Positions 9,736 through 51,854 of a stretch of DNA of 64,000 nt are shown here, one piece after another (positions within the stretch are counted from its first letter, which is position 1; every line of letters starts with the position of its first letter). The position numbers and the translations under genes were made by a program. The stretch covers positions 806,001 to 870,000 of the forward strand of contig NZ_CP151979.1 of assembly GCF_038593265.1 (NCBI RefSeq), read 5' to 3'. Origin of the DNA: Ureibacillus sp. FSL W7-1570 (GTDB lineage Bacteria; Bacillota; Bacilli; Bacillales_A; Planococcaceae). The notes under the pieces were generated by a model that was given only the letters and a program-made list of their open reading frames with translations, did no database searches and was not told where the DNA came from.

Positions 9736-9744
9736 CTATGAAAC

Positions 9745-9773
9745 CTTTAAATCCCTCTAAGTTCAGATATAAC
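9745..9773 (-). repeat. Lone CRISPR repeat fused to a gene 3' end
   Basis: This 29-base sequence equals the repeat of the small array at 11681-11904 except for one base. On the minus strand it supplies the last codons (G-Y-I) and the TGA stop of the secreted-protein gene ending at 9763. No second repeat lies next to it. It is probably a leftover of the same array, separated by rearrangement. Confidence 0.8.
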
Positions 9774-11615: not shown

Positions 11616-11680
11616 GAGAACCCCTCCTTTAAAAATTTGGTATCTTCTTCCTTATATTCTAATTATACAACAAAAACAAC

Positions 11681-21096: not shown

Positions 21097-23583
21097 CCAT
21101 CAACATCTCATAGGTAAGATCAAAACTCACACGCTTTTTACTATCTCTTCTGACTTTTCGAAATTTCAATCCCTCATAGGTAAGATCAAAACTTGAGGAT
21201 GCGGAAGTTTTGTTCCTCGCCCATCTGCCATTTCAATCCCTCATAGGTAAGATCAAAACTAATTGCTACGCTTTTTTGCTACAACATTGTATACATTTCA
21301 ATCCCTCATAGGTAAGATCAAAACTTGTAAAAAATAATGTTATCAGTGGTAAACAGCTAAATTTCAATCCCTCATAGGTAAGATCAAAACACGGCTTGCA
21401 GACCGATAGTGAAAAAGCATACATCAATTTCAATCCCTCATAGGTAAGATCAAAACGTTCACTCTGTTTAAGAAAATAGGCATAACTATCATATTTCAAT
21501 CCCTCATAGGTAAGATCAAAACGTCCAAGCTCTCAAAGAAATTAACGATTGTTTTTCCCAAATTTCAATCCCTCATAGGTAAGATCAAAACATTTTGCAG
21601 AATGGGCTAACAAAGTAGAGAAACCTTATTTCAATCCCTCATAGGTAAGATCAAAACCGGTTTTTGAAGATGAAGTATTACATCGAAAGTTTCATTTCAA
21701 TCCCTCATAGGTAAGATCAAAACCTTTGCCGTTTTTGTCTTTTAAGCCTGTGTATTGCATATTTCAATCCCTCATAGGTAAGATCAAAACAATTATCGGT
21801 GAAATGATTGGAAAACCACGAGAAGCTGATTTCAATCCCTCATAGGTAAGATCAAAACCCGATGTGACCACCGAAAATATCGATTTCTGTATAAATTTCA
21901 ATCCCTCATAGGTAAGATCAAAACGCGCATGTTGTATGCACAGATTCATACCGTTTATATCGTGATTTCAATCCCTCATAGGTAAGATCAAAACACAGCA
22001 TACTGGAAAACGAATAGCGGAGCTATCCAATTTCAATCCCTCATAGGTAAGATCAAAACGTTGTTTCACCACATGCTGCCAACAGCAAGAATAGCGAATT
22101 TCAATCCCTCATAGGTAAGATCAAAACCCTGTTGCGTCTGAAATGGCTTTAGCAAGTCTTTCAGCATTTCAATCCCTCATAGGTAAGATCAAAACTGATT
22201 ATTGTATAAGTCAACACTTTTTTATGTATTTTATTTCAATCCCTCATAGGTAAGATCAAAACGTTGTAGGTGGCGTAGCCCGTCTAAATGAAGATGGATT
22301 TCAATCCCTCATAGGTAAGATCAAAACCAAACATCATTACTACCGTCTGTACTAGCGTTGCCTATATTTCAATCCCTCATAGGTAAGATCAAAACTGCTT
22401 TCAGCGAGTTTCTGTTTTTCTTCACGGTATTTATTTCAATCCCTCATAGGTAAGATCAAAACGAGAATCGGTAAAATGGTTTGCGGAGCAGATGGAAAAA
22501 TTTCAATCCCTCATAGGTAAGATCAAAACTTTGTTGTTGTACCAGACTTCTCAAACTCAGAAAAATTTCAATCCCTCATAGGTAAGATCAAAACCCAGCA
22601 AGTCCAGAAATTGCACCGAGAATTACTAGATTTCAATCCCTCATAGGTAAGATCAAAACTATATGGAAAGAGGAATGTATCATGAAAACAATTGAGTTTC
22701 AATCCCTCATAGGTAAGATCAAAACGGCGGCAGCGATGCATCAGTGATTTTAGGATTCAAGTTTCAATCCCTCATAGGTAAGATCAAAACGTAAAAGAAA
22801 GAGTATTTGAACAGTTTACTTATCGAAATTTCAATCCCTCATAGGTAAGATCAAAACTCCATTACGTTTCATGATTTCAACAACTTCATCACTAATTTCA
22901 ATCCCTCATAGGTAAGATCAAAACCTTGAACAGATTGGCTGGAAAGATATACGGAAAGAATTTCAATCCCTCATAGGTAAGATCAAAACAACGCCCCAGC
23001 GATATGCCGCTTCTTTCACAGTCATAATTTCAATCCCTCATAGGTAAGATCAAAACATCAATAATAAAATCAATATCCATTTTCCTTGCCAGATTTCAAT
23101 CCCTCATAGGTAAGATCAAAACAGATACGGAGGAAATGATTAAACATATCATCTTCATATTTCAATCCCTCATAGGTAAGATCAAAACCTTGCTTTGTTT
23201 TAACTTTTATCCCAAAAATCCCTCGATTTCAATCCCTCATAGGTAAGATCAAAACATCTTGTTAGGTACTTTCAAGTCATGTTTCTTTAAGATTTCAATC
23301 CCTCATAGGTAAGATCAAAACAAAGAGATAATGTCGAACACTATATTTGCAATTTGATTTCAATCCCTCATAGGTAAGATCAAAACAAAGGTGACTTGGG
23401 TGGGTGGATTGAATCAGAACAATTTCAATCCCTCATAGGTAAGATCAAAACAGAGTTTCAGAGAATCGAAATTATTAAAGTGAGTGAAATTTCAATCCCT
23501 CATAGGTAAGATCAAAACCGGTCTTTTTGAAATTCATTCATTTTTCTTCCTCCATTTCAATCCCTCATAGGTAAGATCAAAAC
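21097..23583 (-). CRISPR. CRISPR array A: 38 repeats, 37 spacers
   Basis: Thirty-base repeats every 64-70 bases. In crRNA sense (minus strand) each begins GTTTTGATCTTACC and ends GGGATTGAAAT; spacers are 34-40 bases and all different. The copy at 21097-21126 is degenerate, marking the old end, and the leader is on the right, so spacers near 23554 are the newest. Repeats at 22696 and 22761 end in C instead of T. The trailing GATTGAAAY fits a Cas6-made 5' handle. It serves the cmr genes next to it and probably the type I-B effector. Confidence 0.98.
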
Positions 23584-32419: not shown

Positions 32420-34724
32420 CCAACAATTCCTCATAGGTAAGATCTAAACATCGTACACGTCTATATGACGTGTAAACTCATTATGTTGTTTCAATCCCTC
32501 ATAGGTAAGATCTGAACAACAGTTATTAGACAACCTGGATTGCATTGAGCGTGGTTTCAATCCCTCATAGGTAAGATCTGAACCCCGAATCACTTGTCTT
32601 TGCCATTCAATTTGCTCGGTTTCAATCCCTCATAGGTAAGATCAAAACCAGCATCAATCGTATCAATTTGTTCTCCAAGTGGTAATTTCAATCCCTCATA
32701 GGTAAGATCAAAACGTACGTGTGTAGTGAACTTCCACTCCTTCGTATTCGCATTTCAATCCCTCATAGGTAAGATCAAAACACAAAAAGTTTTCAAAGTG
32801 TCACGTTCGGACAAAAGCATTTCAATCCCTCATAGGTAAGATCAAAACCAGGAAATAACTGTAAATAAGCAGTTAGATACTGGAATCTAAATTTCAATCC
32901 CTCATAGGTAAGATCAAAACACAAAGGCGATTATGCAAAACAGGTAGCAGATGAAAAATTTCAATCCCTCATAGGTAAGATCAAAACAAACTTGAAGGGC
33001 TTGAAGGCGCTGCGGAGAGAAGCGAAATTTCAATCCCTCATAGGTAAGATCAAAACTATATGACCCATTCACTCTTATTGAGTTAGACGAAGGATTTCAA
33101 TCCCTCATAGGTAAGATCAAAACAAGAGAACGCAAGGAATTATTAAGACTCAAAGCCGAATTTCAATCCCTCATAGGTAAGATCAAAACGTTGATACTAC
33201 ATACACAGTATCTGTTTTTGGGGATGGATTTCAATCCCTCATAGGTAAGATCAAAACCCATACAATCGACCGTAGTATGCAGTGCGGAATACGGATTTCA
33301 ATCCCTCATAGGTAAGATCAAAACACAAACTGAAATGAACTAAACCCGTCGACAATGCTGAATTTCAATCCCTCATAGGTAAGATCAAAACCGGTTGATT
33401 GTCGAATTAGCGAGTGCTTTAATTCGGGTTTCAATCCCTCATAGGTAAGATCAAAACTCGAAAAATTACGCGAATTAAGTGGAACAGAAGGCGGTTTCAA
33501 TCCCTCATAGGTAAGATCAAAACCTAATATGGTATCCATCCACATCTGCATCAGTTCCAAGTTTCAATCCCTCATAGGTAAGATCAAAACAACGACTACG
33601 TGAAGCACTTGAATTTTATGCTGACGAGTTTCAATCCCTCATAGGTAAGATCAAAACGAAGTTCCAGCGATTGAAATCGAAGTGCTCGGCCGGTTTCAAT
33701 CCCTCATAGGTAAGATCAAAACCGGCAAGCGGAACAGAAGCGTTGCAAGCATTGGTCGAGTTTCAATCCCTCATAGGTAAGATCAAAACGAATGGTATTT
33801 ATGAGTATAACTATGTTATCGAAGGTTTCAATCCCTCATAGGTAAGATCAAAACCGCAATCCACCAAGAATCGAAACCTGTGACGGCCATGGTTCAATCC
33901 CTCATAGGTAAGATCAAAACTTTTTTCAACCCCCTACGCCTTTGTTAATATTATGAGTTTCAATCCCTCATAGGTAAGATCAAAACAGTGGGCGCAACTT
34001 TTCTTTTTCAGATGGTCGGTCTAGTTTCAATCCCTCATAGGTAAGATCAAAACATTAACTCCAAAATAATTCGTCAAAAACGACGGATTATGTTTCAATC
34101 CCTCATAGGTAAGATCAAAACGTATCGCTCCACGTTTTTGCAACTCTCGCACACCGAGAGTTTCAATCCCTCATAGGTAAGATCAAAACGGATTTGTAGA
34201 AGGTCTACTATTTGCACAGGAAATTCGTTTCAATCCCTCATAGGTAAGATCAAAACGGTCAATCACGGAACATCATTAGAAATCGAGGACATCTGTTTCA
34301 ATCCCTCATAGGTAAGATCAAAACTTGGATTCGATGAATTCGCTTATACCTTCACTGATGAGTTTCAATCCCTCATAGGTAAGATCAAAACGTTGATTTG
34401 AAAAATCCGGATATCGACAAAATCGAAGATTTCAATCCCTCATAGGTAAGATCAAAACGGCTTGAAGATTGGTTAAAAGACAAAAAAGAACAGTATTTCA
34501 ATCCCTCATAGGTAAGATCAAAACAATTTGGCACAATTTCACTATTTAACTGCGTATAGGCATTTCAATCCCTCATAGGTAAGATCAAAACCAAAGACGA
34601 TTACAATTTACCAAACGTTATGAGCGCATTTCAATCCCTCATAGGTAAGATCAAAACGTGGTTTTGGCACATACATCTTTTTTCGATAGTCTGCATTTCA
34701 ATCCCTCATAGGTAAGATCAAAAC
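32420..34724 (-). CRISPR. CRISPR array B: 35 repeats, 34 spacers
   Basis: Same repeat family and orientation as array A. The leftmost copies (32420, 32488, 32554) differ at the GATCAAAAC end, marking the old end; the leader is at the right. The handle-terminal base (crRNA sense) is C in repeats 2-4 and 16-30 (33428-34391) and T in 5-15 and 31-35, so variants come in blocks. The repeat at 33891 lacks one T. It directly follows cas2 and its leader. Confidence 0.98.
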
Positions 34725-34902: not shown

Positions 34903-35166
34903 TTAAATCAAAAAATCTGTCGTTGCTTTTTCTTTTCCCATGATTTCTCTTCCGGTATATTTTTGCGAACGAAACGTATATAAAATAACGGAATCTTCAT
35001 CATTATCAATTAACATTTCTAATTCTTTTTTTAATTTTACCAGGTTGGCTTTTGAAATTTCTCCTTCAAACACAGAATTTTGTACCCAATGTAAATATTT
35101 TCTACAAATTTTTAACGCTTTTCCTACTCTTTTTTCTCCAACGTCATATACAAGGATCACAAACAA
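34903..35166 (-). CDS. cas2: CRISPR-associated endoribonuclease-fold protein Cas2
   Basis: An 87-residue protein with the ferredoxin-like Cas2 start MFVILVYDVGEKRVGKALKI (D8 conserved), the WVQNSVFEGEIS strand and the C-terminal FLI. With Cas1 it forms the integrase that inserts spacers at the leader end. Last gene of the type I-B operon, 74 bases after cas1, ending next to the array B leader. Length and motifs are normal. Confidence 0.95.
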   Translation of the reverse strand: MFVILVYDVGEKRVGKALKICRKYLHWVQNSVFEGEISKANLVKLKKELEMLIDNDEDSVILYTFRSQKYTGREIMGKEKATTDFLI

Positions 35167-35240
35167 CGACCAACCCTCACTCTCTGAATCTCAAGCTAAA
35201 GATGATTCATATAAATATATTCATTTGCAAAAGATTTGTC

Positions 35241-36251
35241 TTACCACAACGAAGTATATGGCTCGTAGGGTTTTTCTCCTAAAATATGTTTTTGGATTTT
35301 GTATAATTCTAATCGGATTAACCGACGGTATGATACGTTTCTCCCTAAATGCCTATGATTGACTGTCGTTCTCATTCTTGTTTCGAGCTGTTCTATAAAT
35401 GTTCGTCTTCCTTTCTCATTTAATAATATTCCGCCGGTATGTTCTTTTTCAAAATCTTTTTGTGTGATCATTTTTTTATTGATTAGTTGAAAAATAAGGC
35501 GATCGACCATGATTGGTTTAAAAATTTCAGCCACATCTAAATTCAAAGTAAATCTTCGAAAATTAGTGGAATGCAAGTATCCGATTCTTGGATCTAGATA
35601 TGTTTTATAGATTTCACTAAGTACCATTGTGTAACACAAGGAATTGCCAAAACTGATAAGGGCATTCAATGGATTTAGGGGAGGACGTTTCGAACGTTTT
35701 TCAAATACAAAATCTTTATTGTTTATAATTTCATCAAAGCACGAATAGTATAACTCTCTGGTATTTCCTTCAAACGCCATCAATTCAGCTATTGTTTCAA
35801 TTTCATTGATTTTTTCCATAAGAACATTAATTTTTTCAATCACTTCGATAAACTTTTGGTTGCTTTCTTTTCGACGATTCGCATAATAACGTAACACTTG
35901 CTTCATTTGATTCATTGAGCCTTTCACAAATCTTCTCGCCAAGTCGATTCGTAAATCTTCATTTAAGTAATGTTCGCTTTGTTTTAATATGACATGCCCT
36001 GAGTTTAAATGTTCACGAGGATAGAACGTTCCGCTGTAGTAACCATAGTAATTGAAAAAGTGAACGCAAATTCCTTTTTGGCTTAAAAAATCGAGTAATC
36101 TTGTATTTAGATCAACTTCTGAAAAAATAAAAATGTCGTTCGTATCTTCAATGGGTATAAATTTTCGATTGCCTTCAGCATCTTCAAAATATAATGTGTT
36201 GTCTTTTCGTCTGAACTTGCCGCTTCGTAAAATGTACAGCGTTTTCTTCAT
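35241..36251 (-). CDS. cas1: CRISPR integrase Cas1 (type I-B)
   Basis: A 336-residue protein: N-terminal beta domain (LYILRSGKFRRKDNTLYFED), helical catalytic domain with FEGNTRELYYSCFD (metal-binding E), DPRIGYLHSTNFRRF (H) and LDVAEIFKPIMVDRL (D/E). It joins prespacers to the repeat with Cas2. Four-base overlap with cas4 indicates coupling. The shared leader and repeat indicate that it serves both arrays. Confidence 0.96.
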   Translation of the reverse strand: MKKTLYILRSGKFRRKDNTLYFEDAEGNRKFIPIEDTNDIFIFSEVDLNTRLLDFLSQKGICVHFFNYYGYYSGTFYPREHLNSGHVILKQSEHYLNEDLRIDLARRFVKGSMNQMKQVLRYYANRRKESNQKFIEVIEKINVLMEKINEIETIAELMAFEGNTRELYYSCFDEIINNKDFVFEKRSKRPPLNPLNALISFGNSLCYTMVLSEIYKTYLDPRIGYLHSTNFRRFTLNLDVAEIFKPIMVDRLIFQLINKKMITQKDFEKEHTGGILLNEKGRRTFIEQLETRMRTTVNHRHLGRNVSYRRLIRLELYKIQKHILGEKPYEPYTSLW

Positions 36252-36775
36252 TCATCTTCACCTGCCCAACAATATTCCCGGTAAGCACATGAACGGCAAT
36301 ACTTGATTTTTTTCGGCGGTGGAGGAACAGGGTACTTTGCTATTTTTTGAATTTCGGAAATCGCTTCATGCAATTGCTTGCGGTTTTCATCTGTTAAAAC
36401 AACGGATTCTTTCTTTTTTTCTTCAGAAAACAACAGCTCTCCTTTTGCTTGAATTCCCATTTTTTCAAGTTGATCTAAATAAAACAAAAGCTGAAAATAG
36501 CTGCTTTCTCTAAATTTTGAAGTTTTCTTAATTTCCTGAACAATTACTTCATTTCCGACTTTCTTTATCCGATCAATTTTGCCGCTGCCAATATCGACTT
36601 CTTCTTTCCCGCGCTTGCTGTAGTACTCGTGTATAAATCGGCCGATATCGATATTTTCGTCTTCCTGATCGGGAATAATATTATGCATCATGAGCCACAA
36701 CTCACGTTTGCAAATAAAGTAATACCAAATATACGTTCCGGTGATTGGAAATTGACTATCCATCCGCGTCACCAC
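36248..36775 (-). CDS. cas4: CRISPR exonuclease Cas4
   Basis: A 175-residue RecB-like nuclease with iron-sulfur cysteines: FICKREL (C22) near the N-terminus and CRSCAYREYC near the C-terminus (C160, C163, C169). Core motifs IDIGRFIHEYY, KGKEE-type and VQEIKKTSKF (the E-x-K triad) are visible. Cas4 trims prespacers and helps select the PAM. It abuts cas3 and overlaps cas1. Confidence 0.94.
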   Translation of the reverse strand: MVTRMDSQFPITGTYIWYYFICKRELWLMMHNIIPDQEDENIDIGRFIHEYYSKRGKEEVDIGSGKIDRIKKVGNEVIVQEIKKTSKFRESSYFQLLFYLDQLEKMGIQAKGELLFSEEKKKESVVLTDENRKQLHEAISEIQKIAKYPVPPPPKKIKYCRSCAYREYCWAGEDE

Positions 36776-39118
36776 TTACCAAATTAATGATGTTTGTTCT
36801 GTTTTATAACCGAGAGTTAAATCATAATAATCTTCTAATTGAGTCTTAGTCAGGTAGCCGATTCCATTAACAATTGGCGGTTTATTGTCTACCTTTCTTG
36901 GAATGGAAATAATGTATTGATAAAAGTCAGCTTTAATATCCCTAAAAGCTTTCTTCCGCTCCCATTGATCTTCAATTTTTAATATTTTTTCATAATGTTC
37001 AAATAAAGATTTCGCTTTTTCATCAAGCTCTAAAAATACTTCCATTCTGTCATACTGCTCCTCAATTAACTGAAAATGAGAAACAGGAATTCGATCTGCA
37101 TCTTTTTCACCGTCGAAATATAATGTTTGAATCCCATTCAATAGTGCCAATGACTCTTTATTAGCCGTTTTTGCTTGCAATTGTTCAAAATATTGCTCTA
37201 TGAACTGAAAAAACCGTTCTTCTGGTATTGCATCATTCTTTAATAATTCTTGTGTAATATTCAATCGAATTCCATCATAGATGTAATTTGCAAAACTCTT
37301 ATAACCATCGGTTAAATGTGCAACATGTATTTCTCCTTTTCTCATTCCATGACGATTACATCTCCCAGCAGCCTGTTGAATAGAATCAAGCGGCGCTAAA
37401 TCTCTATATACAATGTCAAAATCGATGTCAACACCTGCTTCAACTAACTGTGTACTTACTACTATCTGATATTTTTGTTTTTTAATTTCACCAATTCTTT
37501 TCAATCGTTCAATAGGAGGAATGTGAGTAGACAAAAACGTTATCTTTTTATCAGGTACAATCTCTTTTAATTTTTTGTATACTTCTTTAGCTGCATCAAT
37601 CGTATTTAATATAAACAAATATGTCTTAGATTCGTTGATGTTTAAGGTATTTACAAATTGTTCAATCGTCATTTTTTCTTTTATGTGAGAATGCAACATC
37701 ACTCTTGACAGACCTTGATAATACTTTGGGGCATCCACTAACGGCCGCATTTCATCTTCTTTAAAAATGGCAGGAATGGTTGCTGAACTAAACAGGAAAT
37801 AGCAATCTAATTCTCTAGCTAAAACTTTTAATGTTTCACGAACAACGAGCCAGTATTTGTGCGGAATCGCTTGCACTTCATCGATAATGAAAATCGAGTG
37901 GGCAAATCGATGAAACTTTCTAAGCGATGCATTTTTATTAGAAAAAATCGAATGAAATAACTGAATAAAAGTTGTCAATATGATTTCTGCATTCCATCCT
38001 TCAACTAACAGTTGTGCAGCATTGTAGTCATATTGATGATAGCCTTCTTCATTTTTTTGAATCGTGTAGCTTAAATCTGACAAATGATGATGCGTAAGTA
38101 ACAACGATTGGTCCATTTCGATTTCGTTAATATTAAATATTTCTCGAATCACTTTTTCCGTCTGATCAATGACGCTTAAAAATGGAAGGCTGTAAACAAT
38201 ACGTGATGTAACTCCTTTTTCTTGTTCGATTTTTTTTCGCAAATTTAAAGCAAATTGAAATGATGTCAACGTTTTTCCAAAACCTGTCGGCAATTGCAGC
38301 GAATAAAAATGATGATTTAAGTCAATGTTCAGGGAATCGACTTCTTGAAATGCTTTTTCCCTAAGTTCATTTAGATTGCGATTATCCCAATTCTGTTTTC
38401 TTTTGTAATTTATAACAATGTCGTAATTAAGCTTTCTTCTTTCTGGAAATAACCCTTTTTGGAGAATGCCGACTTCAGATTTGTCCGCATCGATAAGGAT
38501 GGAAAATAAAAAGATATATTGAATATACAATTCAATTGGAACTTTCTCGCGATTATATTTCATAATTTTTCTTCGGATTTTAAAAGATTCATTAAATAAA
38601 TCTTCAACCCATTGTAAACAGGTTTCTTTCGATAAAGGCTTGTATAATGAAAAAGATTGAAACGACTGATTTAGCTTTTCAAAATCGATTGCATGAACTT
38701 GCTTTTGTAACAGTTCTTTTTCGTTTTCATGAAACTGCTTAAACTCATCCAGCCAATTATTCAATTGGCCATGATGTTTCTTTACAATTAAAAATGCAAG
38801 TAAACGCAATCGTTCGTCATCAAATTTCAATTCAGATTCATATTGTAAAAATTGGTATAATAATAACGCTGAAATCAAACTATGATTTTTGAGCATACCT
38901 AAATCATTATTTTCTTTCCTAATGTATTGTTGAAAATATCCAGTTGCTTTTCCAATGTCGTGAAATAATCCAATCATATTGGAAAGTAGAAATAAGTCAT
39001 TCATATATAGACGTGAAAGACGTTTTTCATCAAAAAACTTTTCAATTTGATGTAAAACCCCCTGTACATGTTTTTCTAATGGATAGTTCGGGTGAGATAA
39101 TAGTTGGACCACAAGCAT
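36776..39118 (-). CDS. cas3: Cas3 helicase-nuclease (type I-B)
   Basis: A 780-residue fusion. HD nuclease: LFHDIGKATGYFQQYI (H53, D54) and KKHHGQLNNW, with FSILIDADKSE later. SF2 helicase: Walker A LQLPTGFGKTLTSF (about 275-287), IFIIDEVQAIPHKYW (DEVQ variant of DEAH), FLFSSATIPA, VSTQLVEAGVDIDFDI and QQAAGRCNRHG. It is recruited by the Cascade R-loop and degrades target DNA. Seems complete; placed between cas5 and cas4. Confidence 0.95.
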   Translation of the reverse strand: MLVVQLLSHPNYPLEKHVQGVLHQIEKFFDEKRLSRLYMNDLFLLSNMIGLFHDIGKATGYFQQYIRKENNDLGMLKNHSLISALLLYQFLQYESELKFDDERLRLLAFLIVKKHHGQLNNWLDEFKQFHENEKELLQKQVHAIDFEKLNQSFQSFSLYKPLSKETCLQWVEDLFNESFKIRRKIMKYNREKVPIELYIQYIFLFSILIDADKSEVGILQKGLFPERRKLNYDIVINYKRKQNWDNRNLNELREKAFQEVDSLNIDLNHHFYSLQLPTGFGKTLTSFQFALNLRKKIEQEKGVTSRIVYSLPFLSVIDQTEKVIREIFNINEIEMDQSLLLTHHHLSDLSYTIQKNEEGYHQYDYNAAQLLVEGWNAEIILTTFIQLFHSIFSNKNASLRKFHRFAHSIFIIDEVQAIPHKYWLVVRETLKVLARELDCYFLFSSATIPAIFKEDEMRPLVDAPKYYQGLSRVMLHSHIKEKMTIEQFVNTLNINESKTYLFILNTIDAAKEVYKKLKEIVPDKKITFLSTHIPPIERLKRIGEIKKQKYQIVVSTQLVEAGVDIDFDIVYRDLAPLDSIQQAAGRCNRHGMRKGEIHVAHLTDGYKSFANYIYDGIRLNITQELLKNDAIPEERFFQFIEQYFEQLQAKTANKESLALLNGIQTLYFDGEKDADRIPVSHFQLIEEQYDRMEVFLELDEKAKSLFEHYEKILKIEDQWERKKAFRDIKADFYQYIISIPRKVDNKPPIVNGIGYLTKTQLEDYYDLTLGYKTEQTSLIW

Positions 39119-39174
39119 GTTCCTCCTCTCTCACGTATAAGCTAAAAAGAAAGCACGTTCATTCACTAAACGTG

Positions 39175-39900
39175 CTAATTGATAAAACAAATATGTTCCG
39201 ATTGGCTCGTTACGTAGCTATGATCCACTAGCACTTTTATCGGTTTTCCAGTTGATTCAAAAATAATTTCTTCGTAATTTGAAACAACACGGTTAACATC
39301 CATTTCAGTTGCAACAGTTTCTTTCATGTATGTTTTTCCGTCTTCAATTAAAAGACCGTTTTCTTGAATCATGGAATGCTTCAAAACAGTTGCCATTTCT
39401 GTATAATCGTTTGACTCGGTTTTATGAACTTCTTCTATCGTTACATATTGAAACTGCGCCAAACATTCACTCAGTCCAAGCGACACAGTGTAAACCGATT
39501 TATGTTGAGATACGTATTCGATTAATCTTTCAAACAGATTTTCATCGGATATATGGATATAACACCGATAGCCAGGATCTTTTAAAAACTCTGTTCGTAT
39601 CTGTGTTCTTGGACCTTCTCGTCTTTGCTTGGGAATCCATATGTTCCCTTTTGTATTAATATGATTTAACCCTATCCTCGTTTTTTTCACAGGTTTCAAT
39701 ATTTTAATCCCATATCTAACCGTTTGATGATTCAATTTCTCTAAATAAAAATTATTTTCTTTCTCAAACCCTAAAATCGCTCCTAAAATGCCGTACATTG
39801 CGGTAGGGGGAATGATTGAATATGTTAGCGGAGAAGAAGTTGAAAAATATTTACGAAAATGTCCAAAATCACCCCATAGATCAAAAACTAGCACTTTCAT
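39175..39900 (-). CDS. cas5: Cascade subunit Cas5 (type I-B)
   Basis: A 241-residue RAMP protein with KVLVFDLWGDFGHFRKYFST and SLTYSIIPPTAMYGILGAIL-type start (here SPLTYSIIPPTAMYGILG), the Cas5 signature, and a YTVSLGLSECLAQF segment. Cas5 binds the crRNA 5' handle and contacts Cas8b. It lies 12 bases after cas7 and 56 bases before cas3 in the operon. Confidence 0.94.
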   Translation of the reverse strand: MKVLVFDLWGDFGHFRKYFSTSSPLTYSIIPPTAMYGILGAILGFEKENNFYLEKLNHQTVRYGIKILKPVKKTRIGLNHINTKGNIWIPKQRREGPRTQIRTEFLKDPGYRCYIHISDENLFERLIEYVSQHKSVYTVSLGLSECLAQFQYVTIEEVHKTESNDYTEMATVLKHSMIQENGLLIEDGKTYMKETVATEMDVNRVVSNYEEIIFESTGKPIKVLVDHSYVTSQSEHICFIN

Positions 39901-39912
39901 GTTTCTTCACCC

Positions 39913-40875
39913 TTAAAAATCCAATTCCCTAATTGAGAACCCTGCCTGCTGCAAACTGTTTTTGATATCCGTAGACAACTGAATCCGTTCATCGACTTTT
40001 ACATCGATTCTTTCAATTTTATTTTTATTTTTGTTTAAAACATCTATGAATCTATCAACATCAATGATAAATTCGCTGACATCACGAAGTTCTTCATCAT
40101 TTTTATCCGTTTTTAACGACAGGTACTTATCCAGTTCTCCAATATGGAAATGTTTTTCTTTATAAACAACGTTTATTAACAGTCTAGGAACTTGTCCAAC
40201 TTTCGAGCGTGAAATCAAGCTTTTTGTTCCATTCCACATTGCTTCCAATAACGTGTCAATATCTTCTTCGGTTAATCTAGTCGTTTTTGCTGCTTCCTCA
40301 TTGACAATTCCGTAAAAAGCAATCAATGAATACGGAAGCACGTATTCTTCGCGAAATGTTTTTTGTGTCGATTCACTTCCAGAAGCGAACGCACCTGTTC
40401 CTTTTATATACTCCATTTTTACGCGATGAAGCGATTGTCCCATTTTGAATTGAACTGGACCTGTATGAGTAATCGAACTTTTCTCTTTTGATGATTTTTC
40501 CACTGGCAAAGTTACACCAAATAAGCGAATATCTATACAAGAAGAAAGAACCTGAACATTAATAATTTCTTTCATTTCTGCTAATGACAATTTCTCTTTT
40601 TCAAGTTTTTCTCCATCTTTTATCAAAAAATCTTCAGCACGTTGTTTTGCATCCTGAATATAATCTTTCTCATCTACTATTTCACGAATAAAAATTTCCA
40701 ACCCTTTATATTGATGTAAAAAATCGCGGATCGTGCGTTTTAATCTCACATCTGTAACGATGTTTCGCCCCGTTTCTTCATCGATTCTCGGTTTATTTTC
40801 ATCAACCGGATCCCCATTTGGATTAATCCATTGAGCATCATACAAAAACAATATTTCTGAACGATTCGTTAGCAT
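39913..40875 (-). CDS. cas7: Cascade backbone Cas7 (Csh2 type)
   Basis: A 320-residue protein with LFLYDAQWINPNGDPVDENK, PRIDEETGRNIVTDVRLKRT, DIRLFGVTLP and THTGPVQFKMGQSLHRV, the DevR/Csh2 family pattern. Several copies coat the crRNA spacer in the type I-B Cascade. The start overlaps the cas8b stop by one base, showing tight coupling. Confidence 0.95.
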   Translation of the reverse strand: MLTNRSEILFLYDAQWINPNGDPVDENKPRIDEETGRNIVTDVRLKRTIRDFLHQYKGLEIFIREIVDEKDYIQDAKQRAEDFLIKDGEKLEKEKLSLAEMKEIINVQVLSSCIDIRLFGVTLPVEKSSKEKSSITHTGPVQFKMGQSLHRVKMEYIKGTGAFASGSESTQKTFREEYVLPYSLIAFYGIVNEEAAKTTRLTEEDIDTLLEAMWNGTKSLISRSKVGQVPRLLINVVYKEKHFHIGELDKYLSLKTDKNDEELRDVSEFIIDVDRFIDVLNKNKNKIERIDVKVDERIQLSTDIKNSLQQAGFSIRELDF

Positions 40876-42629
40876 TATTGAATAACCTCCTCTTTTTCAT
40901 ATAAAACTTCTTTAACTTTTGAAGCTAAACTCATTCCACAAACAAAGTAGAAATTGATTTCATCGATTGATAGTTTCCACTTTTCATTAGCTTGCAAAAA
41001 TAGAGAAGATATTTCTTCCGCCAATTCTTGTCTTGGTTTCGTGTAGGCATCATATTCAATGAATTTGTTAATAACTTTCGGGAGCAAACCTTTTATTGAC
41101 TGTTCATCCATTTTTAATCCCATTAACTGTTTAAGAAACGGTTTTGAATTGCGTTTTTTCTGTTGAACTTCCAATAAAATTTGCGTCATCGAACCTAATA
41201 AAAAGATGGCTCTTTTTTCATTTGTATTTAGTTGTTTACCAAAAACTTCAAAAATGTTGTTAAACTTACTCATAATCATCTGGCCTCCTTCGAATTGAAG
41301 CACATTGATTTTTTCCAAAAATGACAGGCAAGCCATCGCTTGTTTGATTTTCCAATAGAAATTTTGCTCATTTTCTTTTAAAAAATCTTTGCGGATTTCT
41401 TTCATTATGTATTTCAATAAAAAATTGAGTTCCAATTGTTTGGCCTTAAAAGATGATTCGACAATTGTTAAAAAATACTTATTTAAATCAAAATTTTTCT
41501 TACCTTCATCGGATTTTGCAAAAAACGTACGGAAGAAACCGAAGTGAAAATGTCTAGGTTCATTTGTTTCTTTTTTGAATAAAATGACTTTTTCAACTTC
41601 TTCTTTTGATTTAAACAATTTTTGAAGACGTGACGGCAATACATCATCAATAACAAGCAATATGCGTTCAGCGCTTTGAATTTTTTGCATAAACAAAAAT
41701 TTCAATGAAATCGTATTTTTTTGTTCAGATAGAATGTACAGTAAATCTCCTTCATCAGTCATTATTGAATTGCCGCTTTCTTTTGAAAGCTGGATCATTT
41801 TTTGTTGATTTTCAAAAATTTCGAGTATTACTTCAAAATCTTCTCCTGTATTTTCTTTGTTAATTAGAAACGATGGTATTAATAAATACGGAAGTCCATA
41901 AAATTGATACTTTAAGTGATTTTCAATATATTCCTTACCCGCTTCTACGAAACTTTTACACTCCAAACAAACCGGATAATTTCTCCATGCTGTTTCTTCT
42001 TGAAAGCCCCCCGTTATAAAACCTGGCTTATCCAATGTGTAAAATTTAAAGGCTGACATTTTTCCAATGACTGTATCTTTTTGCTCTTTACAAATGGAAC
42101 AAATTTGATTATTCGCAGATAATTCCAAATCCTTTTTGTTTATGAGATATAAAAAAGTTTCCGTAAAAAGTTCATTCTCTACCGGATATAAATGATTCAA
42201 TTTTACAGATATCAAACACTTATCCAAAGATTCGATTTTTTCAGATACAGCTGCTAAAATTGATGCTTGATCTTGTACTAACCTGTCATATATTTGTTCC
42301 AATTTTTCTTTGTTATTAATTCTTTTTTCTTTTAAAACTCCTCGAAACCAACCTAATATTTTTTGATCATAGGTATTTGATAAAGTAGTTATTTTGGCAG
42401 TCGGCGAAAAGTTTGCTCCTCTGGAAGAACCTGAACGAAACAAGTATTTCGAATAATCAGTTGAGACTTCTTCATAATCGACCCCTGTAAATTCAATACC
42501 ATTCTCAGTTTCAGAAAGTAAAATAAACATACAATAATCATAGTTAGGATTTTCAATCATTTGTTCTAACACACTTTTATTCGATTTTTCTAACACATAC
42601 CGTCCTAATGCAGCTACTGATTCAATCAT
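40875..42629 (-). CDS. cas8b: Cascade large subunit Cas8b (Csh1/TM1802 type)
   Basis: A 584-residue protein that carries the zinc site of type I-B Cas8b: CSIC at 177-180 and CLEC at 221-224. The N-terminus (MIESVAALGRYVLEKSNKSV) and the C-terminal helical part (FYFVCGMSLASKVKEV, probably including the small-subunit region) fit the TM1802 group. Cas8b reads the PAM and starts the R-loop. An internal initiation giving Cas11b is known in the family and possible here. It follows cas6 by 46 bases. Confidence 0.88.
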   Translation of the reverse strand: MIESVAALGRYVLEKSNKSVLEQMIENPNYDYCMFILLSETENGIEFTGVDYEEVSTDYSKYLFRSGSSRGANFSPTAKITTLSNTYDQKILGWFRGVLKEKRINNKEKLEQIYDRLVQDQASILAAVSEKIESLDKCLISVKLNHLYPVENELFTETFLYLINKKDLELSANNQICSICKEQKDTVIGKMSAFKFYTLDKPGFITGGFQEETAWRNYPVCLECKSFVEAGKEYIENHLKYQFYGLPYLLIPSFLINKENTGEDFEVILEIFENQQKMIQLSKESGNSIMTDEGDLLYILSEQKNTISLKFLFMQKIQSAERILLVIDDVLPSRLQKLFKSKEEVEKVILFKKETNEPRHFHFGFFRTFFAKSDEGKKNFDLNKYFLTIVESSFKAKQLELNFLLKYIMKEIRKDFLKENEQNFYWKIKQAMACLSFLEKINVLQFEGGQMIMSKFNNIFEVFGKQLNTNEKRAIFLLGSMTQILLEVQQKKRNSKPFLKQLMGLKMDEQSIKGLLPKVINKFIEYDAYTKPRQELAEEISSLFLQANEKWKLSIDEINFYFVCGMSLASKVKEVLYEKEEVIQ

Positions 42630-42672
42630 CCTTTTTCACCTCCAATAATTTTTGTAACTGCCCTCCTTTTCC

Positions 42673-42702
42673 AATCTAATCCCTTTTAGGTAAGGTCGAT
42701 TC
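42673..42702 (-). repeat. CRISPR-repeat-like element across the cas6 stop codon
   Basis: On the minus strand this 30-base stretch agrees with the array repeat at 21 of 30 positions, including CTTACCTA and AGGGATT in the same order and spacing. It encodes the last residues of Cas6 (LPKRD), contains the TAG, and lies in crRNA sense within the cas mRNA just before cas8b. Cas6 could bind or cut here. No second copy or spacer is adjacent. Confidence 0.65.
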
Positions 42703-43455
42703 TGGTCGAATCATGCCGAAACCTATCGAATTTTTGGAGCCCAGACCTGTATTAAGTAGAAAAGATAAATATTCCGGTTTGGCTTTCAACCGGTACATGC
42801 CTTTCCAGCCGGTAATCCAAGTCGATTTGTAATTCGTGACAACTTTGTCGCGACTGTCTACTTGAATGGGTTCGACAGAAAGGACCTGGCCTTCCTCTGC
42901 AAAGGGTTTATTGTAAAATGCTTCATATTTGCGAATAAAATTTTCCTCCAGTAAATGCTCAAACACTTTATCAAACGGTGAAAAGAAATGCGTAATTTTG
43001 CTTCCATCCCTACGTTCAAACGTTGAATATACAGTAATCGGCGATAAAGCGCGGACAACGATTTCACTATCTTGCACTTCCAGTTTGTCAAATTCCAATG
43101 ATTCAACCTTTAAAGAAACGCCATTCATCTCTAAATCTGCAGATAATAATAAAAAATTTGCAGTTTTTTCCACAATATCTGGTATAATTGAACTAATAGA
43201 CAGATATAATTTGTCATAAAATGTTAGTTTTTTAGTTTCTTTATCATAAGTTATATTTGACGACTGCAAGGTGCTGAATACAAACAGCTTGTACGTGCGG
43301 TTTTGATGCTGAAAACCATGTTCATGGAGAAACGTTGCTTCTTTTTGAGGCAAAATCTTGTAGACGAACGCTTGAAGCAAATGTTGGTAGTTCACTGGTA
43401 CTGTCAGCGGTTTTTCCAATGAAAAAGTAATGTGGATTGCTGGAATGATAATCAC
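42676..43455 (-). CDS. cas6: CRISPR repeat endoribonuclease Cas6
   Basis: A protein of about 257 residues with ITFSLEKPLTVPVNYQHLLQ at the N-terminus and the C-terminal glycine-rich loop LLNTGLGSKNSIGFGMI, both typical of Cas6. It cuts pre-crRNA upstream of the ATTGAAAY handle and should supply both the I-B and the III-B complexes, since the cmr operon has no cas6. The start is unclear: the GTG at 43455 is part of the ribosome binding site AGAGGTGAT, so translation may begin at a following ATT/ATC codon. First cas gene of the I-B operon. Confidence 0.9.
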   Translation of the reverse strand: MIIIPAIHITFSLEKPLTVPVNYQHLLQAFVYKILPQKEATFLHEHGFQHQNRTYKLFVFSTLQSSNITYDKETKKLTFYDKLYLSISSIIPDIVEKTANFLLLSADLEMNGVSLKVESLEFDKLEVQDSEIVVRALSPITVYSTFERRDGSKITHFFSPFDKVFEHLLEENFIRKYEAFYNKPFAEEGQVLSVEPIQVDSRDKVVTNYKSTWITGWKGMYRLKAKPEYLSFLLNTGLGSKNSIGFGMIRPESTLPKRD

Positions 43456-43498
43456 CTCTTATATGCAATTGTTAACTAATCCAGATAATACCAAGAAT

Positions 43499-43531
43499 AA
43501 AAAATGGAGTCAACGGTCGACTCCATTTTTT
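43499..43531 (-). terminator. Perfect terminator hairpin inside the cas6 leader (attenuator candidate)
   Basis: Arms AAAAAATGGAGTC (43499-43511) and GACTCCATTTTTT (43519-43531) pair perfectly over 13 bases with a seven-base loop, and the minus-strand 3' arm ends in six T plus ATT. It lies directly after the 23-residue leader ORF and 44 bases before cas6, so most transcripts may stop here unless read-through occurs. Confidence 0.85.
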
Positions 43532-43603
43532 CTATTTTTGCAACTCATCATCTTGTAGCTTATTTTCTTCTAGGTAAGATTGAATATATGCAATTGTTGA
43601 CAT
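43532..43603 (-). CDS. 23-residue leader ORF upstream of cas6
   Basis: ATG with GGAG six bases upstream; the peptide is MSTIAYIQSYLEENKLQDDE plus LQK. It has no known relatives I recognise. Part of its DNA (43562-43591) contains ATCTTACCTA, a ten-base exact match to the core of the CRISPR repeat in crRNA sense, with 18 of 30 positions matching overall. The stop codon touches the terminator hairpin. A 17-base near-identical direct repeat (GTCAACAATTGCATATA, one change) recurs just before cas6. It may be a regulatory leader peptide; product accumulation is unproven. Confidence 0.5.
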   Translation of the reverse strand: MSTIAYIQSYLEENKLQDDELQK

Positions 43604-43625
43604 TTCAAACTCCTACACGGATTTG

Positions 43626-43660
43626 ATTATAAAGTATCGAATTTCCTGGCATCTCGCAAA
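43626..43660 (-). promoter_or_regulatory. Candidate promoter of the cas6 operon
   Basis: TATAAT on the minus strand at 43626-43631, 22 bases before the leader ORF start. No good -35 box at 17 bases; TTGCGA lies at 22. The promoter may need an activator. Confidence rests on the perfect -10 and its location. Confidence 0.45.
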
Positions 43661-43770
43661 TGCAAAAAATCGCAATTCGATTTCCTATTTTTGGGTTTAC
43701 TCTCATTTCCAATATAGTTCAGCAACTATTCTTAACGAAAAATATAAATTCATCACAAATCGTGAAAATG

Positions 43771-43860
43771 AAGGGGCTGGGACAAAACTAGCTTCTAGAT
43801 AGGAAAAAAGGGCTGAGCCCAAGGTCGATTCAATCGACTTTTCGGACAGCCCCTTCCTCT
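43771..43860. repeat. Short GGCTGGGACA-type dispersed repeat
   Basis: AAGGGGCTGGGACAAAAC at the left and GGACAGCCCCTT at the right form inverted ends around GGGCTGAGCCC and GTCGATT/AATCGAC hairpins. It is a shortened relative of the element at 2308-2608 and could stop transcription entering the cas promoter region. Confidence 0.55.
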
Positions 43861-43869
43861 TCTTCGTCA

Positions 43870-44089
43870 TCATTCAGCACTAAAAAAGCGCCCCATTTTT
43901 TTATAATGTTCATTAGTGAGGATTTTGTCGATTTCTGCTTCGCTATTTTCTTCCTCCGTTACAGGAAGCGTCATTCCTGCGTATCCCCAGCCATTTGACT
44001 CAAGCCATTTCAACGAAATCATCTATAAATTCATCGTATCCTTTGTCGCAGTTTACAATGTATCCGTCTAATCGGATGTCAAATCGCAT
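43870..44089 (-). pseudogene. Frameshifted small hypothetical protein
   Basis: From an ATG at 44089 the frame reads MRFDIRLDGYIVNCDKGYDE then FIDDFVE; skipping one A in GAAATGG continues it as WLESNGWGYAGMTLPVTEEE and ends MGRFFSAE. The total would be about 72 residues, acidic, of unknown function. The single-base insertion probably inactivates it. Confidence 0.6.
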
Positions 44090-44428
44090 GAAGTATTCCC
44101 CTTTCAATAACTCTTATCAGTTCTTCATTTGGTACTGTAATATCTTAGCTAGATTTTCTTATTCTGCTATTTCCTTTTCGGCATTTCAAACACTTTTTTG
44201 AGAATTATTCATCATGCTAATTAGAAGAATGCTCACAGTTTTTCAATCAGCCAATTGCAAATAAAAATAACCGCGCATTCATCGATACAATGCGCGACTT
44301 GTCGTTGTGATTGGTTTTTAATCCTTTAAAATCATACCCTCAATTAAATCAGTTTCGTTAATATTATCAAAAAAATGTTCCATCCGTTATGAGTGTTTTT
44401 AGCCTTTCAACATGGAAAACAGAAGGAA
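44090..44428. other. Intergenic region with a minus-strand terminator
   Basis: Arms CGCGCATT (44272-44279) and AATGCGCG (44289-44296) form a hairpin followed on the minus strand by TTATTTTTATTTG, a likely terminator. Between it and the IS21 element lies the end of an unrecognised minus-strand frame (MEHFFDNINETDLIEGMILK), apparently the tail of a gene removed or split by the insertion. Nothing else was seen. Confidence 0.4.
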
Positions 44429-44490: not shown

Positions 44491-45216
44491 TTAATTCCTT
44501 TTCGACAATGCGTGGGACAGTCTATAGCTCTCGCCATGAAAAGAGATGATATGGGCGTGATGAATTAGCCTGTCCACTAACGCTGCTGTTAAACGAGAAT
44601 CTGTAAAGATCCGGTTCCATTGACTAAATTCTAAGTTAGATGTAATAATTACGCTTTTCTGTTCATAAAACTCCGATATAATTTGGAATAATAATTCAGC
44701 TCCTTCTTTACTAAATGGTAAGTATCCCATTTCATCTAAAATGACCAAATCAACCTTCTCCATCCGTTTTCTAAATGCTGATAAACGGTTGTTACGTAAA
44801 GCTTGCTCTAATTCCTCAACTAGGTGGGCAACACGGTAAAAACGAACCTCATAACCTAGTTCACAAGCTTTTTTCCCTAGTCCTGTGGCTAAATGAGTCT
44901 TCCCTGTCCCGGGTGAACCAACTAAAACTACATTTTCTCGATTCTCAATAAATTGTAGGCTACACAAATCCTCTTTGGTTAAGTGAGGAGGGAACCGAAG
45001 TTGTTCGGTCCACTCGTAATCATGTAAACTCTTTTTATCTAAGAACTTCGCCTTTTTTATCAAGCGGATTGCTCTCGCTTTTTCTCTTAATCTTATTTCC
45101 TCCTTAAGTAGCCCATATAAGAATTGTTTCGGAGTTTCAAACGGTATTTGCTCGTATACATCCGCAACATAAGCTAACCTCAATGACTTACACAATTCTT
45201 TAATGTCCTGTTTCAA
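44491..45216 (-). CDS. istB: IS21 helper ATPase IstB
   Basis: A 241-residue AAA+ ATPase related to DnaC. Walker A VVLVGSPGTGKTHLATGLGK (about 95-114), Walker B VDLVILDEMGYLPFSKEGAE and sensor VIITSNLEFSQWNRIF are intact. IstB selects target DNA and stimulates IstA. It overlaps the end of istA by four bases, the usual arrangement. Length is normal. Confidence 0.95.
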   Translation of the reverse strand: MKQDIKELCKSLRLAYVADVYEQIPFETPKQFLYGLLKEEIRLREKARAIRLIKKAKFLDKKSLHDYEWTEQLRFPPHLTKEDLCSLQFIENRENVVLVGSPGTGKTHLATGLGKKACELGYEVRFYRVAHLVEELEQALRNNRLSAFRKRMEKVDLVILDEMGYLPFSKEGAELLFQIISEFYEQKSVIITSNLEFSQWNRIFTDSRLTAALVDRLIHHAHIISFHGESYRLSHALSKRN

Positions 45217-46629
45217 TTGACAGCCTCCTCTCTAGGAGCTAATGAATCGTATTTACTCCAGTCCACTTCATAAGGATTATTATCACTAGGTAGCTTATCC
45301 TGTGCAATTAATTCATAGAACTCTTCATTAATCTTCTTCATGTCATGAGAAACTAATAAACTAGCTAGAGCTTCTAATCGTTTTCGTCGAATAATTAAAT
45401 TATCTACCAACAAAAATTCTTCCCGGTAAATACTTATTATAGCGCGAATATTCTACAACCCTTGGTTTATGAATCCATGTTTTAATTATTGAAAGCCATG
45501 GTAATGCTTTTCGCTTTTTCATATATGGCCGATAGTCATCCAATAATATCTCCCCATTAGGTGAAACAATCTTTAATTGATCCCATGTTAATATCATTTG
45601 TAATTGACTATAGTTGCCACCCTTAGGGACATGAACCAACGTCTGATCCACTTTCACTTCATTATATTTGTTTACTTTAACAAGATGCTCTTTAAATACA
45701 GGATAGGGCTTTTCCGGTAATGCTAGAAGATAATCCCGTTCTTCCTGCCATAAGTCCTCAATACGTACGTTTTTGGCATAATGAATTCTATTTCTGTCCG
45801 CCTCTAATTTATGAAATAATTGATTAGTTAAACCCTCATAGCTGTCCATTATTGGAGCTGAAGTAAAAAAGTTATAGCGTATATATCCAACTTTATTCTC
45901 AACATTTCCTTTTTCATGGCCACTTCTTGGATTGCATACCTGCACATCAAAGCCATAATAATTCTGAAATTGAACAAATTCATCAGTTAATTGTGCTTCT
46001 TCATTTTTTGTCCTTTTTTTCTTCACAGCGGGGGTCAAATTATCGATTCTTATCCTTTTAGGTACTCCCCCAACCTGTTTAAAAAGAATATTGAGACCAT
46101 GTAAGAAGCATTCTTGATTTTCAGCTGGTAACGGTACTGCAAATCCAGCATTACTATGAGGAAACGTCATAACTAAAGCATGAATATCCACAATTTCTCC
46201 ATCTTGTACAGCTTCCATTACTCCAAAGTCTACTTGAGCTTCACCCGGAGGATGTTCTAATCTTTCATACCCTTTATCCTTTTCTTCTTGGTGAGTATTC
46301 ATCCATTCAGAGATAAAGTAACAAACAGTACGATAAGAACCTTGGAAACCCATTTCCTTTAGTTCTTCAAATATTTGTTTCTTTGTTCTTCTTAATTTTT
46401 TCCTTAACTTTAAATCCTCAAAAAGCCAATCTGAAACAATTACTCCCCACTTTTCCTCATACATCATCCCTTTCTTTTTAAATGATTTCTGTTTAGGGAG
46501 TTGATCTTCATCCGCATACTTCTTAGCTGTTCGCCAATTAATTCCCATTGTTCTTTGTATTTCTGAAATAGATAAACCTTTGTTATTTCTTAAATGTTTG
46601 ATACAATTAATATCAGACATTGCTAGCAT
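45213..46629 (-). pseudogene. istA: IS21 transposase IstA, frameshifted near the C-terminus
   Basis: The main frame (45400-46629, 409 codons) has an N-terminal HTH (GLSISEIQRTMGINWRTAKK), the DDE core with AQVDFGVMEA, IRIDNLTPAV and the glutamate in GHEKGNVENKVGYIRY, and ends YLPGRIFVGR-stop. A second frame (45213-45413) carries the rest of the C-terminal helix region (IIRRKRLEALASLLVSHDM). One base shift near 45405 separates them. The catalytic core is present but the natural tail is lost without frameshifting. Confidence 0.85.
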
Positions 46630-50008: not shown

Positions 50009-50011
50009 GGC

Positions 50012-51841
50012 TTATACACTCCTAACATCCGTGATTCCGTTCTTTTTCAATGTTTGAATCGCATTTGTTTTCACTGAATCATTGATGAAACCAGACTCTT
50101 TGAAAATCACTTTTGGTGTCATGTGCTCTGACTTATGTTTCATCATTTCATTGACAATGTCTAAGTCAATTTCATTTTCTAAGCATAATAAGACAGAACC
50201 AAAACCGACGTTGTAAATGGTTTTACCCTTATAGTCAATCTCTTCGATTGGCGTTGTGAGCGGTAAGCCAATTTTTAGTAAAATTTCATACAATAAGTCT
50301 TCTTTTGTACGGTCTTCGTCTTCTTTGATGTTGTTCTGTAAATCTAAAAGGGTCTGCTCCAAGTTCTCGAAATCAGGGTCCCACGTTTTGACATTGGAAG
50401 AATCAAGCTTAAACACTTTAAAACCAATATCTAAATCCGTTTTTCCTGTTTCTTGAACAATTTTTTCACCAGCGCGGCGAATACGTTCTTTCCCGATTTC
50501 ACAAATGTTTTTGTAACCGGCTTTATACGCTTCTGATTTTTCATCTGTTAATTCTGGCAACTGTACCATGATGAATTTGCGATTTCCACCGTCTTCAGCG
50601 TTTAACTGCATTACCGCGTGGGCGGTGGTGGCGGAGCCGGAGAAAAAGTCTAATACTATATCATGATCTCTTGTAGATAACTCTAATATTCTTCTTATCA
50701 ATTTTACTGGTTTAGGATAATCCATTACCGACTGATTATTAAATAATTCTTTTAATTCCTTTTTAGCATCTTGTGAATGTGATACTTCTTGATATGTCCA
50801 TACAGTCAATGGAGTAATAGTAGATTTTACCTCACTTAAAAATCGTTTTAAACGTGGGACATTGTTACCGTCTTTACCGAACCAAATTCGATTATCTTTA
50901 CGATATTCTTCAAATCTTTCCTTTGTTAAGACCCAACAACGCCCCTCTGGAGGTAAAACTCTTCTTCCACTTGGTGTAATTATTTCATATACTTTCTCTT
51001 CAACAACTGGACCTACCGATAAATCTCCTGACATCCAAGGTCCTCTAGGATCATTATCAGGATTAGAATACCTTCCATCAGCATCTTCACTTCTTGATAG
51101 GCCATAGAGTAATAAACTATCAATTTTTTTAGCGTAACATAAAATAAAATCATGGTTACGAGAAGCAAACTTATTCATATTAACAGGTGCAAAAGCTCTT
51201 TGCCAAATAAAAGTTGTTACAAAATTGGTTTCACCAAATACCTCATCACATAATTTTCTCAAATTTGCTGCTTCCGTGTCATCAATAGATATAAAAATAA
51301 CCCCGTCCTCTCTCAACAAATTCCTTGCCAATTTCAATCTCGGATACATCATATTCAACCAATCAGTATGGTATCGTCCGCTTGTCTCCGTATTCGCTTT
51401 TGTTGTTTGTTGTGTCATTTCTTTATAGTTTTTAATGTTATCCCTGAAATCATCTTTGTACACAAAGTCTTTCCCCGTATTATACGGCGGGTCGATATAA
51501 ATCATTTTAATCTTGCCAAAGTATGATTTTTGCAACAACTTTAGTACTTCGAGGTTGTCTCCTTCAATATAAAGGTTTTCCGTTGTATCCCAGTTTTTGC
51601 TGGATGCTTTGTCTGGGCGGAGTGTTCCCGTTGATGGCGTTTGTGCTAGTTTCATCGCTTGCGTTTTGCCGTGCCATGTGAATTCATATCGTTCATTGCG
51701 TTTTTCAATTTCTTCTCCAAGCACAAGTTTTAATTTTTCAAAGTCGATTTTTCCTTCGGTCACGACTTCCGGGAACAACTGCTTTAACGCTTCAATATTT
51801 GTTTTCACTAAATCCATCGATTTTCCGTCTAGTTTTTCCAT
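50012..51841 (-). CDS. mod: Type III modification methyltransferase Mod
   Basis: A 609-residue beta-class N6-adenine methyltransferase: catalytic motif IV DPPYNTG at 117-123 precedes the SAM-binding motif I DFFSGSATTAH at 398-408, with a long target-recognition region between (about 205-370). It methylates one strand of an asymmetric site and gives Res its specificity. The recognition site is unknown; the target region decides it. Located between the DUF4391 gene and res, with short gaps. Confidence 0.94.
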   Translation of the reverse strand: MEKLDGKSMDLVKTNIEALKQLFPEVVTEGKIDFEKLKLVLGEEIEKRNERYEFTWHGKTQAMKLAQTPSTGTLRPDKASSKNWDTTENLYIEGDNLEVLKLLQKSYFGKIKMIYIDPPYNTGKDFVYKDDFRDNIKNYKEMTQQTTKANTETSGRYHTDWLNMMYPRLKLARNLLREDGVIFISIDDTEAANLRKLCDEVFGETNFVTTFIWQRAFAPVNMNKFASRNHDFILCYAKKIDSLLLYGLSRSEDADGRYSNPDNDPRGPWMSGDLSVGPVVEEKVYEIITPSGRRVLPPEGRCWVLTKERFEEYRKDNRIWFGKDGNNVPRLKRFLSEVKSTITPLTVWTYQEVSHSQDAKKELKELFNNQSVMDYPKPVKLIRRILELSTRDHDIVLDFFSGSATTAHAVMQLNAEDGGNRKFIMVQLPELTDEKSEAYKAGYKNICEIGKERIRRAGEKIVQETGKTDLDIGFKVFKLDSSNVKTWDPDFENLEQTLLDLQNNIKEDEDRTKEDLLYEILLKIGLPLTTPIEEIDYKGKTIYNVGFGSVLLCLENEIDLDIVNEMMKHKSEHMTPKVIFKESGFINDSVKTNAIQTLKKNGITDVRSV

Positions 51842-51854
51842 GATGGTTCTCCTT

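Follow-up and report, generated by a model that had tools for sequence, protein, structure and literature searches.

A degenerate CRISPR repeat-like element across the cas6 stop codon of a Ureibacillus type I-B operon, and a probable CreR gene upstream of it

The cas6 gene of a type I-B CRISPR-Cas operon in Ureibacillus sp. FSL W7-1570 ends inside a solitary, degenerate sequence that is very probably related to the repeat of the CRISPR arrays of the same region. This element occupies positions 42673..42702 on the minus strand of the window (the whole 64-kb stretch of DNA that was analysed) and spans the last nine cas6 codons, stop codon included, together with 3 nt beyond them. Our tentative preference is that the cas mRNA carries a solitary Cas6 site here, through which Cas6 may exert negative feedback on itself in cis. 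In form the element looks like a solitary ectopic repeat of the psiR2 type, which retains the bases flanking the cut but not the handle. About 0.9 kb upstream of the element lies what is probably a CreR gene, with a guide that matches a TTA-flanked site in the cas6 promoter region. To judge from its sequence design, this CreR is the better-supported repeat-derived regulator of the locus, and it looks like the main self-control switch.

The element and its operon

The operon runs along the minus strand and encodes a complete type I-B CRISPR-Cas system, in which Cas8b, Cas7, Cas5, Cas6, Cas3, Cas4, Cas1 and Cas2 are all present. Its first gene is cas6 (42676..43455), followed by cas8b of the TM1802/Csh1 type (40875..42629, with the start at 42629) and then, in this order, by cas7, cas5, cas3, cas4, cas1 and cas2 (34903..40875). 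A CRISPR array lies downstream of cas2 (32420..34724, minus strand), and another, built on the same repeat, occupies 21097..23583, also on the minus strand. In the crRNA sense, the array repeat reads GTTTTGATCTTACCTATGAGGGATTGAAAC/T. The listed GTG start of cas6 overlaps the gene's own AGAGGTG ribosome-binding motif (43455-43435, minus strand), so that translation may really begin a few bases further on, at a less common start codon.

Other features of the window lie further from the element. Upstream of the cas operon, at 44491-46629 on the minus strand, are two ORFs that we take to resemble an IS21-type helper and its transposase. Beyond them, at 47045-55864 on the same strand, more defence-like genes are found, including a type III restriction endonuclease (below the model cut-off), a DNA methylase and a large helicase, for which several models, DISARM DrmD among them, give weak matches. 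A small array of four copies of a different repeat, GTTTTATCTGAACTTAGAGGGATTTAAAG, is located at 11674-11904; a lone copy of that repeat lies 1.9 kb away at 9738-9773, and repeated CGTAAGAGCCATTTT stretches stand beside both the small array and the lone copy.

Read along the minus strand from 42702 to 42673, the element is GAATCGACCTTACCTAAAAGGGATTAGATT, and the cas6 stop codon TAG (42678-42676) falls inside it, as an earlier note on this DNA had reported. Its identity to the array repeat is 20/30 rather than the 21 of 30 given in that note, so that the likeness stands with a corrected count. The two blocks CTTACCTA and AGGGATT are both in register with the array repeat, again as reported. The element had further been placed exactly between cas6 and cas8b; it does lie at this junction, with 43 nt between it and the cas8b start, but it is largely coding rather than purely intergenic. 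The observation as first reported is therefore partly confirmed.

The core of the element, CTTACCTAAAAGGGATT (42678..42694, minus strand), matches the array repeat at 15/17 positions. By analogy with the array, and using the 8-nt handle rule (PMC8501985, from the part of that article available to us), the Cas6 cut is predicted to fall between 42681 and 42680. The pattern kept around this cut is CTTACCT-NNN-AGGG^ATT. Bases have been lost on the outer 5' side and at the end of the 8-nt handle, and the putative 5' handle, ATTAGATT, agrees with the array handle at 5/8 positions by manual count. The predicted 11-bp stem of the array repeat (-7.4 kcal/mol, z -2.8) is also lost, the element giving only -3.8 with a z of -0.63. 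Loss of the stem looked for in a Cas6 substrate argues mildly against recognition of the element by Cas6.

Chance, descent and conservation

The overall identity does not by itself distinguish the element from background. In 60 first-order Markov simulations, the expected number of matches of at least 20/30 is 0.62 per 64-kb window over both strands, and the best score is at least 20 in 28 of the 60 simulations; the 20/30 count alone is therefore not significant, and we discarded it as a basis for significance. This result leaves some room for the simplest alternative, namely that the codons of the cas6 tail happen to resemble the repeat.

Several comparisons based on the core make such a coincidence unlikely in our judgement. 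The sequence CTTACCTANNNGGGATT has 72 copies in the 3.28-Mb genome, 71 in the two arrays and one at the element. When the pattern CTTACCTATGAGGGATT is searched with up to two mismatches, counting the terminal repeats at 21097 and 32420 as array, the element is the only genome site outside the arrays and their terminal repeats. At three mismatches, five other sites appear outside the arrays, and a reversed control pattern gives seven sites with up to three mismatches. From our own scaling of this control, chance alone would give about 0.4 sites per genome with at most two mismatches in the core, so that the element is unusual for its location and not for existing. Against coincidence, the sole site is in the sense strand, in the cas operon and at the cas6-cas8b junction; by our estimate the figure is about 5e-4 for a sense site at any place in the operon, without correction for how the core was chosen. 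Moreover, random synonymous codons for the same peptide, drawn according to the codon usage of the window, reach 15/17 in register with a frequency of only 0.0033. The repeat-matching tail codons include ACC and AGG, which are uncommon here.

The same core was scored in 64 type I-B cas6 3' regions, with a generic repeat used for loci without a detected array. The 15/17 of the element is far outside the range of 61 of these regions, which reach at most 11/17 in sense; high sense scores of 15-16/17 are found only in the window, in Ureibacillus terrenus and in locus L051. On the antisense strand the best score is 15, in L103, with at most 12 elsewhere. We therefore reject the idea that an element of this kind is a regular feature of cas6 stops in type I-B loci, as it is seen only in the window, U. 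terrenus and L051, in the last of which the site lies 103 nt past the stop. A scan for the exact core in 30 more cas6 loci of the phylum, drawn from the 153 genomes with Cas6 among 398, finds arrays in three (L178, L182 and L184) and one lone antisense match in L180; because the scan did not use repeats derived from these loci themselves, it is a weak test. Viral contigs scanned for CTTACCTAAAAGGGATTAG gave 0 matches, and Rfam gave none over 42500-44100.

Note that the duplicate loci L086, L089, L090, L095, L107 and L109 are omitted from the 64-region scan, from the Cas6 tree and guide search described below, and from the comparison of the L088 and L103 repeats. L054, which has no match to Cas8b, Cas7 or Cas6 of the window, is omitted from the later comparisons.

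Among the genomes examined, U. terrenus (G252, L086) is the only other one found with this cas6-cas8b junction. Its Cas6 is 97% identical to that of the window, the cas6 genes diverge by 2.7%, and the element is kept. A 24-nt stretch (42699-42676) is identical in the two, and three of the six remaining element bases differ. Since an unchanged core over 24 nt is compared here at about 2.5% divergence, this is suggestive but weak evidence and is not significant. The more distant relatives examined are without the element, and outside the genus the nearest Cas8b relatives (L085, L087, L088, L030 and L031) have no cas6 at this place. The element is thus known from a single independent lineage.

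The part of cas6 that carries the element appears to be an addition to the gene. The domain models PF01881 and TIGR01877 end at residues 249 and 250 of the 259 residues of Cas6, before the last residues RPESTLPKRD, and 12 residues follow the GFG motif, compared with 5-8 in seven array-side relatives (L030, L031, L038, L039, L085, L087 and L088); the element therefore sits in an extra cas6 tail. In a tree of Cas6 (58 rows of 230-330 codons, taken from the plus strand of the oriented loci), the Cas6 of the window groups with the array-side Cas6 proteins with support of 100/99, which implies that cas6 or its surroundings have moved.

Both the longer tail and this grouping suit a second alternative, in which the element is a relic without present function: a decaying repeat, left by an array once upstream of cas8b or by a former CreA or CreR at the junction, into which the cas6 frame now runs. 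Arrays or degenerate repeats do occur upstream of cas8b in the close Cas8b relatives L085 and L088, and CreA-like pairs exist at the junction in L103 and L051. However, in the array-side relatives 186-214 nt separate the cas6 stop from the first repeat core, and the L085 array ends about 240 nt before cas8b, so that a relic must assume a deletion too. The wear is also of another kind, because the element is worn at both ends with its core intact, whereas the terminal repeats of the two arrays of the window are worn mainly at the 3' end. We consider a relic possible although doubtful, and rank it close behind the solitary Cas6 site.

A probable CreR gene and related guides

The CreR gene went unmentioned in the earlier note and came to light from the surroundings of the element. 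All of its parts lie on the minus strand. The first repeat, psiR1 (43602..43632), is very degenerate, contains inserted bases and is weak outside its handle; the handle, TTTGAAAT at 43609-43602, matches the array handle ATTGAAAT at 7/8 positions. A -10-like TATAAT can be read inside psiR1, with no scored -35. The pseudo-spacer psiS, GTCAACAATTGCATATA, is 17 nt long (43585..43601), and its first 14 nt would form the spacer of a predicted 44-nt mature RNA. The second repeat, psiR2 (ATCTTACCTA, 43557..43586), is exact to the array repeat over 10 nt and matches it at 17/30 overall and, by manual count, at 12/17 in the core. A strong intrinsic terminator (43499..43531) lies between psiR2 and cas6. 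From the psiR1 cut to the psiR2 cut, the distance is 44 nt, or 8 + 14 + 22, in agreement with an 8-nt 5' handle and a 22-nt 3' handle; the predicted mature RNA starts with TTTGAAATGTCAAC.

The predicted target (43460..43479, minus strand) consists of a TTA PAM at 43479-43477 and GTTAACAATTGCATATA at 43476-43460. The psiS is identical to the latter at 16/17 positions, directly after TTA, and psiS and its target are the only two genome sites at one mismatch or fewer. The PAM is that measured in a related system, the type I-B system of Parageobacillus thermoglucosidasius, where 11-25-nt guides are described, in the part of the article available, as repressing without cleaving (PMC10551041). The target starts just downstream of a promoter-like site (43513-43485); such sites number 8 against 5.4 expected and are therefore not evidence. 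The 177 nt from 43632 to 43456 show a single difference from U. terrenus, against the 2.7% seen in cas6. Since the guide finds this TTA-flanked match in the cas6 promoter region, transcriptional autorepression by Cascade would be expected there.

A 23-codon ORF with an AGGAG Shine-Dalgarno-like motif (43603-43532, minus strand) overlaps CreR and ends just before its terminator. We considered this mini-ORF as simply a peptide gene and re-read it as CreR, which leaves the ORF and its AGGAG motif unaccounted for; a mini-ORF with a stem-loop is the description given for some CreT toxins (PMC8501985, in the part available).

Guides of a similar kind were sought in other loci by taking repeat-like sites and comparing the 14 bases after each with TTA-flanked sequences in the vicinity of cas6 or cas8b. 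Matches are found in 9/157 regions, compared with 2/157 when the target regions are reversed. The loci are L032, L034, L041, L043, L044, L045, L106 and L146, in which the CreR-like guides lie upstream of cas6, and the doubtful L120. In the aligned letters of L032, L034, L041, L043, L044 and L106, the mismatches include positions 6 and 12, which, according to the section of PMC8501985 available, take no part in pairing; this supports these six as real CreRs. The match runs without a break over the first 13 bases in L045 and the first 11 in L146, and L120 does not fit. The L032 repeat belongs to an array-like stretch, so that the guide there could simply be a normal terminal spacer. The search missed the CreR of the window because its psiR1 is too degenerate, and this CreR was found by eye and then checked; unlike most of the other loci with their mismatches at positions 6 and 12, it has its single psiS mismatch at seed position 3.

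Two further loci have degenerate repeats at the cas6-cas8 junction itself. In L103 (uncultured Peptococcaceae), an antisense pair is located at the cas6-cas8b junction, together with a small ORF that has a very strong ribosome-binding site (L103:8560-9060, CALBJS010000293.1). By total count, the best match of the L103 psiS is 19/23, upstream of the small ORF and after ATTG, not TTA, and the junction appears CreTA- or CrePA-like. The L103 psiR2 and the cas6-stop element of the window have the 15-mer TACCTAAAAGGGATT in common. In L051 (G272), a sense pair lies at the junction (oriented, about 3533-3640), and after its second repeat come CAGTCT and a run of T, which together with the AGACTG of the repeat could make up a terminator.

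Possible function and known systems

The earlier note had raised a possible link between the element and degenerate-repeat RNAs such as CreA. The junction pairs in other type I-B loci speak for such a link, but the element itself does not qualify as a member of the CreA/CreR class. No psiR1 (handle of at least 7/8) is present 30-110 nt upstream of its predicted cut and no psiR2 (at least 9/14) downstream of it; the identical scan around the CreR psiR2 does recover its psiR1. For the 14 nt after the would-be handle, the best target beside a TTA PAM in the window has 10/14 matches, with 6/8 in the seed, and no target for this sequence is found near cas6. The would-be pseudo-spacer coincides with the ribosome-binding region of cas8b, and U. 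terrenus does not keep it exactly. An adjacent creT toxin gene is likewise absent, as the 43 nt before cas8b leave no room for a separate gene.

These results bear on the remaining alternative, a CreA/CreR guide gene with one repeat and a pseudo-spacer running into the cas6-cas8b junction. The creA of Haloarcula hispanica, as far as the source goes (PMC8501985), likewise has one repeat between cas6 and cas8. Nevertheless, with no partner repeat, no good TTA-flanked target and a handle as degenerate as ATTAGATT, we rejected a guide function for the element; this alternative is largely refuted and highly improbable.

If the element is instead a solitary Cas6 site, Cas6 would recognise it in the cas operon mRNA and cut at GGG^AUU, a position that splits the final sense codon behind its first base (G^AU), immediately ahead of the stop. 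The cut would leave the cas6 mRNA without a stop codon and free the mRNA of cas8b, cas7, cas5 and the following genes, thereby parting the cas6 message from the Cascade genes. Such feedback would be strongest when free Cas6 exceeds pre-crRNA. Since the core of the element (15/17) is closer to the array repeat than that of the CreR psiR2 (12/17), Cas6 should recognise the element if it processes psiR2. On the other hand, CreR already offers feedback, so that a second layer of control is not needed, which counts against a Cas6 site. A combination of the two, in which CreR and Cascade repress the cas6 promoter and Cas6 cuts its own mRNA at the stop, would let Cas6 output track the supply of pre-crRNA; we regard such two-level self-control as rather speculative. 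Overall, the interpretation in the earlier note is partly supported, in that a link to Cas6 is plausible and the sequence does not qualify as a CreA or CreR.

In the literature searched, we found no Cas6 site in a cas6 stop codon and no Ureibacillus CreR, although published cases may exist. The nearest known systems each share part of the features of the element. Like the CreA of CreTA in H. hispanica, as described in the part of PMC8501985 available, it is an ectopic repeat at a cas6-cas8 junction, but it comes without a toxin gene, a target or a usable handle. The Racr RNAs, which are phage RNA anti-CRISPRs made of solitary repeats (PMC10651486, in the part available), resemble it as solitary repeat-like units that could engage Cas6; the element differs from them in being degenerate and in lying in a host cas operon, not in a virus. 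With CreR it shares the nature of a degenerate ectopic repeat beside the cas6 of a type I-B locus. The whole design of a CreR (psiR1, short psiS, psiR2, promoter target and right PAM) is seen in the upstream element at 43632-43499, whereas the cas6-stop element has one repeat and no psiS target and lies inside coding mRNA. In the available portions of two reviews (PMC12737573, PMC13131331), known CreRs act through Cascade on a promoter and not through Cas6 on mRNA.

Taken with the CreR-like guides of eight further type I-B loci, the upstream CreR suggests that self-control of this kind is common in Bacillota. The known ectopic repeats, CreA and CreR, turn Cascade on promoters; a repeat acting inside the cas mRNA would, if true, be their post-transcriptional counterpart, with Cas6 as the sensor.
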